A DNA stretch of 64,000 bases, from positions 1,178,001-1,242,000 of the forward strand of contig NZ_QWGA01000003.1 of the NCBI RefSeq assembly GCF_003576245.1. Direction: 5' to 3'. The DNA is from Henriciella algicola. Lineage in GTDB: Bacteria > Pseudomonadota > Alphaproteobacteria > Caulobacterales > Hyphomonadaceae. Of the stretch, positions 32,697 to 36,411 are shown piece by piece. Both the position numbers and the translations under genes were made by a program. The notes under the pieces are model-generated. The model was not told the DNA's origin, made no database searches, and was given only the letters and a program-made list of their open reading frames with translations. Position 1 is the first letter of the stretch, and each line of letters starts with the position of its first letter.

Positions 32697-33017
32697 CTAT
32701 TCCTCTGCCGCGATCACGGTCGCGGTGCCGCTCGCGCCGTTGTCGCCGGTATAGGCGGAGGCGTGGCCAACTTCATTGCCCGGATCTGCGAAGGTCAGGC
32801 AGCCATTATAGGCGTCGCTCTCGATACACATTTTCGAGGAGGCTTCGTCATAGGTGTAGGTGCCGTTCCCGGCCGCAGATGTCATCGTGCCATCATCGTG
32901 GAAGACGGCTTCCTGATCATTTCCGCTGTCGCTATCGAACTTGATCGTGATCGAGCCCGCAAAAGCTGGCGCGGCGCAGATCGACATGGCCGCAAGGGCA
33001 AGTGCTGTACGTTTCAT
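32697..33017 (-). CDS. Small secreted hypothetical protein
   Basis: A 106-residue protein with a clean signal peptide (AAPAFA/GS cleavage near residue 20). The mature domain is acidic and beta-rich, with two Cys (KMCIESDAYNGCL) probably disulfide-bonded. I do not recognise the family, although the DDGTMTSAAGNGTYTY pattern recalls small lipocalin- or YceI-like beta sheets. The start is ATG 33017 with GGAGGAAACC upstream, an excellent ribosome binding site. It is located between leuC and the VOC gene. Confidence 0.7.
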   Translation of the reverse strand: MKRTALALAAMSICAAPAFAGSITIKFDSDSGNDQEAVFHDDGTMTSAAGNGTYTYDEASSKMCIESDAYNGCLTFADPGNEVGHASAYTGDNGASGTATVIAAEE

Positions 33018-34517: not shown

Positions 34518-34607
34518 GTCAGAGCGGCCTCCTGCTGCGCCGCAAAAGACCATGTGGGGCAGGGGATGACAAGACCGTCCGCCACGTCGGCCATTGCAAT
34601 ATCAGGC

Positions 34608-34639
34608 AAAAGAAAAGGGCCAGCTCATCGAGCTGGCCC
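34608..34639 (-). terminator. Intrinsic terminator of the tandem-repeat protein gene
   Basis: On the minus strand, perfect 10-bp stem GGGCCAGCTC / GAGCTGGCCC with a tiny loop, followed by TTTTCTTTT. It lies 30 nt after the stop at 34669 and isolates the repeat gene from leuC. Confidence 0.88.
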
Positions 34640-34668
34640 GTTCCGGGTGTTTCTGGTTCAGGCTTGAC

Positions 34669-36069
34669 CTAGCAAGGGCAACCTGGGCCGACGTTCAGGA
34701 CCACCAGAGAAGCGCGCTGCGTCTCATAACGGGTCGGTGCGACGACGGTCTCAACCTGGCCACGGACGCGGCGGTATTCGATCGGCTGGACGATACGACG
34801 CTCGACCGGCTGGATCACGTTACGCTGGGTCACCGCTTCGAAATAGGATTCGGTGTACTCTTCGCGATACTCCTCGGTGACCTGCGGGATGTAGTTCACC
34901 TGGGTCTGAGGAATTGGCTCAGCTTCGACGCGGCCTGGAAGATACTCTTCCTGATAGATCGTGTCGCGGACGATGGTTTCGGTCTGCGGACGAAGCACGC
35001 GGCGCTCGATTGGCTGGATCGTCGTGACAACAACCGGCTGGACCACATTGCGCGTAACCTGGTCGACATAGACGTCTTCAACTTCGAGGACGGTACGCTC
35101 GGTCACCTGCGGAATGATCTGCTCGGTGATCTGTGGTGCCTGTTCCGTTTCGACGCGAACTGGAAGACGCTCTTCTTCGTAGCGGGTCGCTGCGGTGACG
35201 GTTTCAGTCGTACCGCGGAGGATACGGCGCTCAACCGGCTGGATCATCGTGCGGACGACTGGCTGGTACACGTCGCGGCGGGTGACAGCATCGACATAGG
35301 TGTCGGTGTACTCATCGCGGGTGACTTCCGTCAGATCCTGAACAACGTTCTCGATGACCTGTGGAACTTCGTCCTGCTCGACACGAACCGGTGCGCGGAC
35401 CGTCTCGTAACGGGTGTCAGCGGTGATCGTCTCGGTGCGAGGACGCGTGATGCGGCGCTGGACCGGAACGATCGTGGTGCGTTCGATCGGCTGGGTGATC
35501 TCACGGCGGGTCACGACGTCGTAATAAGTCTCGGTTGCTTCCTCGACATATTCTTCGGTCACGTCCGTGGTGATGTTTTCCTGGACGGCAGGAACTTCGT
35601 CCTGCTCAACACGGACTGGAAGGTACTCTTCCTCATATACCGTGTCTTCGGTCACTTCTTCGACGCGTGGGCGAACAATGCGGCGCTCGATCGGCTGGAT
35701 GAGCGTGCGCTCGACCGGCTGGACAATCTCGCGGCGGGTCACGGCGTCAAAATAGGTCGTCGTTTCTTCGAACTCGGTGTTCTCGGTCACGCGCTCTTCG
35801 ACGTTTTCACAGCAGAGAACGCTGTCGATCGCCTGCTGCTCACCACCGAGGTAGCGAACATCAGCGCCGCCGGACGTGCCGCTTTGCTGGATGATTTCAC
35901 GAACCTGAGCATCTGTGAGGACGCGTTCGTCGGTTGCGGAACCAGCTGAAGAGTAACGCTCTCCAACCGCTTCATTGTCCCATGTGCCCGCTTCGCCATC
36001 GGCGTGGGCAGCGAGGGGGAGTGCAGCCAAGGCAACGACACCCACCATCAGTTTCTTGCTAAGTTTCAT
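34669..36069 (-). CDS. Secreted protein of 76-residue Val/Pro/Glu/Arg tandem repeats
   Basis: A 466-residue protein that I do not recognise. The signal peptide is residues 1-23 (LPLAAHA). A non-repeat head follows with a Cys pair, VLCCENV (86-87). Then come five repeats starting at residues 107, 183, 259, 335 and 410, with spacing 76, 76, 76 and 75; the fifth is cut short. Consensus core: DAVTRRxIxQPVERTxIQPIERRIxRP, then ETxTxDTRYEEExLPVRVE and a VTEExxEExTETY tail. The protein ends GPGCPC. The alternating Val/Pro/charged pattern recalls alveolin repeats of protist cortex proteins, but that is only resemblance. It is monocistronic, flanked by terminators and inserted between rplS and leuC. 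The start is ATG 36069 with AAGGTGGA upstream. Likely periplasmic, perhaps structural. Confidence 0.9.
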   Translation of the reverse strand: MKLSKKLMVGVVALAALPLAAHADGEAGTWDNEAVGERYSSAGSATDERVLTDAQVREIIQQSGTSGGADVRYLGGEQQAIDSVLCCENVEERVTENTEFEETTTYFDAVTRREIVQPVERTLIQPIERRIVRPRVEEVTEDTVYEEEYLPVRVEQDEVPAVQENITTDVTEEYVEEATETYYDVVTRREITQPIERTTIVPVQRRITRPRTETITADTRYETVRAPVRVEQDEVPQVIENVVQDLTEVTRDEYTDTYVDAVTRRDVYQPVVRTMIQPVERRILRGTTETVTAATRYEEERLPVRVETEQAPQITEQIIPQVTERTVLEVEDVYVDQVTRNVVQPVVVTTIQPIERRVLRPQTETIVRDTIYQEEYLPGRVEAEPIPQTQVNYIPQVTEEYREEYTESYFEAVTQRNVIQPVERRIVQPIEYRRVRGQVETVVAPTRYETQRASLVVLNVGPGCPC

Positions 36070-36356
36070 TCCACCTTCCCCATTTCTGACCCCACCGGCC
36101 AACTAAAGGATATTCAAGTTGCCCGAATGCCCTCGGGACCGTTGTTGATACGCCATAAATTATGACGTCGCTCATTTCGTATACGAAACGGTAATCTTGA
36201 AACCAACTAGATTCCCTTCGCACGCGAGCAAGTCCTTGAAAAACACTGTCCCAGAAGAGGAATTTGTGGCTTTCGCGGCCTGCTTGTCCACAGCTTTGCA
36301 AGCCATATGCCGTAGTGTTACGGGGGTATACGCGAAAAGTGTTGCAGCCAGAACAC
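36070..36356 (-). promoter_or_regulatory. Upstream region of the repeat-protein gene
   Basis: No gene is seen in this spacer. It must hold the promoter of the repeat-protein gene, since the rplS terminator lies just upstream. A perfect 14-bp palindrome, TTTCGTATACGAAA, sits at 36175-36188, about 106 nt before the start codon, and could be an operator. The region is AT-richer than its surroundings. No convincing -35/-10 pair can be assigned by eye. Confidence 0.4.
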
Positions 36357-36383
36357 AAAAACCCCGCAACTTTCGTTGCGGGG
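36357..36383 (-). terminator. Intrinsic terminator of trmD-rplS
   Basis: On the minus strand, 9-bp stem CCCCGCAAC / GTTGCGGGG with a GAAA tetraloop, then TTTTTG. It lies 29 nt after the rplS stop. Confidence 0.9.
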
Positions 36384-36411
36384 TCTAAAAATTACCAAAT
36401 TTTAGGAAATT

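Follow-up and report, generated by a model that had tools for sequence, protein, structure and literature searches.

Epiplastins are defined by the composition of their medial domain, which according to excerpts of PMC6212826 contains (in %) V 25±7, I 9±4, V+I 33±7, K 9±4, T 3±2, A 1±1, G 0.4±0.7 and charged residues 35±6. The same excerpts name as further marks a long beta-strand or random-coil domain without helix and a layer at the inner membrane face of an epiplast-building organism, and set apart the articulin subclass by more than 3 VPV modules. Alveolins show a 12-residue tandem periodicity, as stated in a section of PMC4303705. In the Plasmodium alveolin IMC1a, described in part of PMC5223771, a repeat core lies between terminal cysteine motifs, which maintain the level of the protein. 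Articulin-like proteins of Caulobacter are already in print, with function unknown and a sub-membrane plaque suggested for such bacterial proteins (excerpts of PMC6212826), and they are mentioned in the section of PMC4303705 as well.

Here we describe a bacterial protein that, judged by its sequence, represents a new, narrow family and no bacterial alveolin. It is encoded by a minus-strand ORF (34669-36069; ATG at 36069, stop at 34669-34671; 466 residues) in a 64,000-nucleotide stretch of Henriciella algicola DNA, hereafter the window. Like the Caulobacter proteins as portrayed in those excerpts, it has valine-proline-charged repeats, cysteines towards the C-terminus, an origin in the same order and an unknown function. 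Like IMC1a, and by analogy only, it carries a repeat core with cysteine motifs at both ends; IMC1a differs in forming a network at the cytoplasmic membrane face and in having one single and one double cysteine motif (part of PMC5223771). From alveolins it is distinguished by an exported-looking start, by CC and CxC motifs, by units of 76 residues and by an inner period of 4 and 8 residues. A sequence-only reading of the window had proposed an exported-looking repeat protein with a signal peptide and short head, five 76-residue repeats broken once by a one-residue deletion, cysteines at both ends, no named family and a likeness to alveolins. All of these proposals held except the last. The features of the gene and protein are:

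34669..36069, minus strand: coding sequence of 466 aa, present once in the genome; five comparisons gave dN/dS of 0.03-0.18
36001..36069, minus strand: signal-peptide-like start, residues 1-23, with MKLSKK, a hydrophobic stretch and AHA before DG, judged by eye
35806..36000, minus strand: head, residues 24-88, containing the conserved stretch LTDAQVREIIQQSG
35809..35814, minus strand: vicinal cysteines C86-C87, CC in 28/28 members
35578..35805, minus strand: repeat 1, residues 89-164, from self-comparison and single-repeat profile
35350..35577, minus strand: repeat 2, residues 165-240, from self-comparison and single-repeat profile
35122..35349, minus strand: repeat 3, residues 241-316, from self-comparison and single-repeat profile
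34897..35121, minus strand: repeat 4, residues 317-391, shorter by one residue
34672..34896, minus strand: repeat 5, residues 392-466, in which the cysteine tail takes the place of the usual end; the repeat profile covers positions 1-65
34672..34680, minus strand: C-terminal C464-P-C466, CxC in 28/28 members

The N-terminus reads MKLSKKLMVGVVALAALPLAAHA and is signal-peptide-like by eye only; the starts of the relatives are similar in character. The array units behind the head are spaced by 76, 76, 76 and 75 residues, and the repeat marks given earlier at 107, 183, 259, 335 and 410 denote the same array as 89, 165, 241, 317 and 392 in another register. At offset 76 the self-identity of the array was 43% with a mean BLOSUM62 score of 1.72, whereas the highest score from 1000 shuffles, at any offset from 10 to 199, was 0.13. 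Self-similarity also appeared at offsets 151 and 152, reflecting the missing residue of repeat 4. Repeats 1-3 share 60-63% nucleotide identity and Tandem Repeats Finder reported no tandem repeat within the gene, which points to old repeats. The concern that relatives might lack the repeat architecture was not borne out: the single-repeat profile counted five repeats in 27 of the 28 carriers, and the exception with four (G027, locus L028) is a natural length variant whose protein has 391 aa. When repeats 1-5 were compared with those of five other-genus proteins, values at the same position were 0.62, 0.52, 0.53, 0.60 and 0.62, against 0.35-0.54 at non-matching positions. Repeats 1, 2, 4 and 5 matched their own position best, and repeat 3 was marginally closer to other-genus repeat 1 (0.54) than to repeat 3 (0.53). 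Since the repeats match by position across genera, the array is probably older than the split of the carrier genera. All 28 members have the CC ahead of the array, the CxC behind it and zero cysteines within it; the only extra cysteines are one more near the C-terminus in L019 and one in the signal stretch of L020.

The family was present in 28/105 Hyphomonadaceae genomes and 4/10 genera. Carriers comprise 19 of the 29 genomes in the window's genus and seven g7 genomes, and g4 and g9 contribute a single genome each; those relatives that bear names are Henriciella species and MAGs of Hyphomonadaceae lineage. Since only these fractions of the family and of the genus carry the gene, the group as a whole does not require it. 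The family profile matched 24/398 genomes of the order, all from this same family and overlapping the family-level set, and 1/385 genomes of the class; the single-repeat profile matched 1/372 class genomes, and in both class searches the match was the window's own genome. Outside Hyphomonadaceae there was no match among the 398 order and the 385 and 372 class genomes drawn. The plasmid search for the family gave no match, and of 17 pattern matches in viral contigs 0 were confirmed as belonging to it. The family therefore looks confined to Hyphomonadaceae within these samples. A contig scan with narrow peptide patterns yielded 4 loci. Values of dN/dS against five relatives were 0.035, 0.025, 0.071, 0.062 and 0.176, and lay at 0.03-0.09 in each gene segment compared. 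The gene is real and under purifying selection, which these values indicate to be strong.

The protein fits no named family. The 466-aa protein had nothing above the cut-off in Pfam, PF12314 included, no family in NCBIfam and no sequence match in the PDB, where the family profile returned one chain at E 2.5. The sole Pfam family listed for it, DUF4537 (PF15057), scored 15.5 bits against a cut-off of 27 and was set aside as chance. Among the relatives, WH_DRP (PF23559) reached 27.5 bits in L020 (3.3e-6), barely above the cut-off of 27, with no single stretch passing; L015 scored 16.4 and L017 15. WH_DRP was also listed for four further members beyond those inspected singly, and the other Pfam families of the seven proteins inspected lay below cut-off. 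We rejected these matches as chance on repetitive sequence. The best PHROGs match (4.6e-4) was a family of unknown function, and no paper on the family was found among the open-licence PMC matches listed.

We characterized the inner periodicity of the array in 8 of the 28 members. In 8/8 the hydrophobicity peak lay at 90 degrees per residue, a period of 4.0. Its power was 40-74, the 95% level from shuffles was 30-33, and 0/200 shuffles reached the observed power. The helix band (96-104 degrees) was not significant in 7/8, the exception being L028 (0.035), and the 160-180 degree band was significant in 0/8, with no 2-residue alternation in any of the eight. In four members, V/I/L alone peaked at 90 degrees (4/4), V/I/T/Y/F/W at 86-90 and a beta-propensity scale at 86 degrees (4/4), where L020 also showed a weak component at 180 degrees (0.03). 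Proline peaked at 42 degrees, or about every 8.5 residues (4/4), and its 180-degree component stood at 0.03, 0, 0 and 0 of 100 shuffles. Short-range self-similarity was highest at offset 8 (0.36), then 16 (0.02), and stood at -0.36 at offset 12. The peak at 4 residues may reflect a harmonic of some longer period. We note that an unnamed marine Hyphomonadaceae family with a nearly length-fixed array, terminal cysteines and so unusual a hydrophobic period is a clear target for structure determination.

We tentatively favor an exported structural rod of the cell envelope, built of five repeats with ends capable of disulfide formation. The stand-alone gene would be driven by its own promoter and terminator, and the protein would exit by Sec. 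The array may form a stiff, elongated rod, given the spacing of about 8 residues between prolines and of 4 between hydrophobic residues; the near fixation of the repeat number at five suggests that length matters. In the oxidizing periplasm the end cysteines would form disulfides, which might close each end, or join rods to one another at their ends or to a partner, and rods linked in this way could act as an envelope scaffold or tether. What the sequence itself shows is the old array of nearly constant length, the cysteines at its ends and the purifying selection; export, rod, disulfides and role are inferred. Pfam and NCBIfam gave no membrane anchor, peptidoglycan-binding or surface-display domain, which speaks against this reading. 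Closed pairs or metal sites are equally conceivable for the CC and CxC motifs.

This ambiguity of the cysteines is shared by another possible, though more doubtful, account, in which the protein is a monomeric exported spacer or tether: long, partly disordered, with its four cysteines making two pairs, self-closed or binding a metal or partner, and forming no polymer. The low V+I content (23%) and the richness in E, R, T, Q and P are in keeping with such a chain. AlphaFold gave a mean pLDDT of 38.5 for two repeats with a thin 7-row alignment and of 29.8 for the full-length protein with only 5 near-identical rows, and this low confidence allows for a disordered chain. The conserved repeat number and spacing and the strict period of 4, however, exceed what a disordered linker would need.

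An adhesin on the cell surface or a component of the extracellular matrix, displayed or released so that these marine bacteria can attach, would also account for the signal-peptide-like start, the repeat array and the patchy presence within the genus. We consider it unlikely, because the 466-aa protein has no surface-display or adhesion domain and dN/dS is low in each segment compared. Many adhesins vary in length, whereas the count of five repeats is nearly fixed here.

Still more specific than the favored envelope rod, and improbable as it stands, is an exported fiber with a new fold, in which five modules of 19 tetrads, with hydrophobic residues every 4.0 and proline about every 8, would polymerize through CC-to-CxC disulfides into a periplasmic or surface skeleton. 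The 4.0-residue period would in that fiber correspond to neither a helix nor a simple strand.

That the protein is a true bacterial alveolin or articulin (epiplastin), forming a sub-membrane sheet and homologous to protist or Caulobacter articulin-like proteins, is very unlikely and mostly refuted already. The V/I, proline and charged steps of the array recall these proteins, as do the end cysteines in the case of IMC1a (part of PMC5223771). Its composition (in %: V 16.3, I 6.8, V+I 23.2, K 0, T 14.2, A 3.5, G 0.8, charged 32.4) fits the epiplastin profile in charged residues, I and G, and falls far outside it in T and K. It has one VPV, and the six relatives counted have 1-2, short of the articulin number; the value at offset 12 departs from the alveolin periodicity. 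PF12314 was not listed for the 466-aa protein at E up to 10, was absent among the 19 Pfam families that 16 aligned members returned at E up to 1 and had no match in the window's genome. The signal-peptide-like start further argues against a cytoplasmic location. We therefore rejected membership of the alveolins and articulins, and with it the alveolin-likeness proposed from the sequence.

We compared the family with four PF12314-positive articulin-like proteins (L068-L071) from genus g19 of the same order, presumably Caulobacter, since the Caulobacter vibrioides control also matches. All four peaked at 180 degrees, a 2-residue alternation, as opposed to the period of 4 seen here; the comparison covered these four bacterial proteins. 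They share the signal-peptide-like start and differ in being K-rich, in having 4-5 VPV modules and a Cys- and Gly-rich tail, and in matching PF12314. The family profile scored -9.2 to -12.5 bits on 4/4. BLASTP with composition correction off gave 43-46 bits against them, a level reached by 1-3/300 shuffles and 3-13/300 block shuffles; since this is slightly above composition, a faint relation to articulin-like proteins is possible. With the correction on, E was 0.003-0.074. These comparisons set the five-repeat family apart from the published articulin-like bacterial proteins. The articulin-like ORFs themselves (988-2088 in L068, 1144-2202 in L069; also L070 and L071) have signal-peptide-like starts and Cys/Gly-rich tails that fit export better than a sub-membrane plaque, and these starts bear on where such proteins act.

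A chance ORF or local expansion artefact, which the long overlapping ORF on the opposite strand (34594-35949) might have suggested, is refuted by the low dN/dS across the 466 codons (0.03-0.18 in five comparisons) and by 28 genomes, from four genera, that each hold a single such gene.

The gene stands alone, in keeping with its description as a single-gene unit; neighborhoods differ between genera, and no fixed partner gene was seen across those of the carriers. It had been placed between normally adjacent rplS and leuC, and this slot is indeed occupied in 19/19 same-genus carriers. The normal adjacency was only partly upheld, since among 10 same-genus non-carriers rplS and leuC are near neighbors in 5, with gaps of ~210-430 bp measured from the aligned ends. 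Three more have other ORFs in the interval, one lacks leuC within ~4 kb and the last is truncated at a contig end. In 9/9 other-genus carriers, neither rplS nor leuC was found in the flanks examined (one flank incomplete). In two g7 genomes the gene lies near what we take to be ahpC- and ahpF-like genes. Because three same-genus non-carriers hold other ORFs in the slot, it behaves as a variable spot. The ORFs in this interval (L054/L078, L056/L079, L073) include a methyltransferase-like one of 252 aa in L054. Beside leuC in the window there is also an ORF of 106 aa (32697-33017) with a signal-peptide-like start, conserved in L031, L032 and L034.

Signals flanking the gene are:

34617..34639, minus strand: terminator-like stem-loop of 10 pairs with a T-rich tail, directly 3' of the stop
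36359..36386, minus strand: terminator-like stem-loop after rplS, separating rplS from the five-repeat gene
36175..36188, minus strand: palindrome TTTCGTATACGAAA, over the likely -10 TATACG (36178-36183)
36201-36206, minus strand: likely -35 TTGGTT, spacer of 17 to the likely -10
36210..36214, minus strand: GAATC (GANTC site) upstream of the likely -35, in 15/17 aligned same-genus loci

Strong terminators had been claimed on both sides of the gene. Stems do occur after its stop and after rplS, and aligned relatives have similar G+C-rich stems downstream (by eye, uncounted), but the 4 terminator-like sites in the region do not exceed shuffles (mean 3.1, sd 1.9). A consensus scan for sigma-70 promoters found no site in the region, and the candidate promoter is therefore proposed from conservation. 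In the window's genome a conserved block ~100-150 bases 5' of the start comprises GAATC, 3 bases, TTGGTT, 17 bases and TATACG. The alignment covered 17/19 same-genus carriers, two near-identical ones being omitted; TTTCGTATACGAAA was exact in 9/17 loci and within 3 mismatches in 17/17. It is the sole site in the genome at 0-1 mismatch. A shared regulon was considered and rejected, since the other sites carry 2-3 mismatches and a reversed control pattern gave 11 against 12; one other palindrome-like site inspected precedes genes that are presumably respiratory-complex-like. CcrM methylates GANTC sites, which in this bacterial group are used together with GcrA. Cell-cycle control is therefore a lead for the five-repeat gene, and either this or a dedicated regulator is possible from the conserved block.
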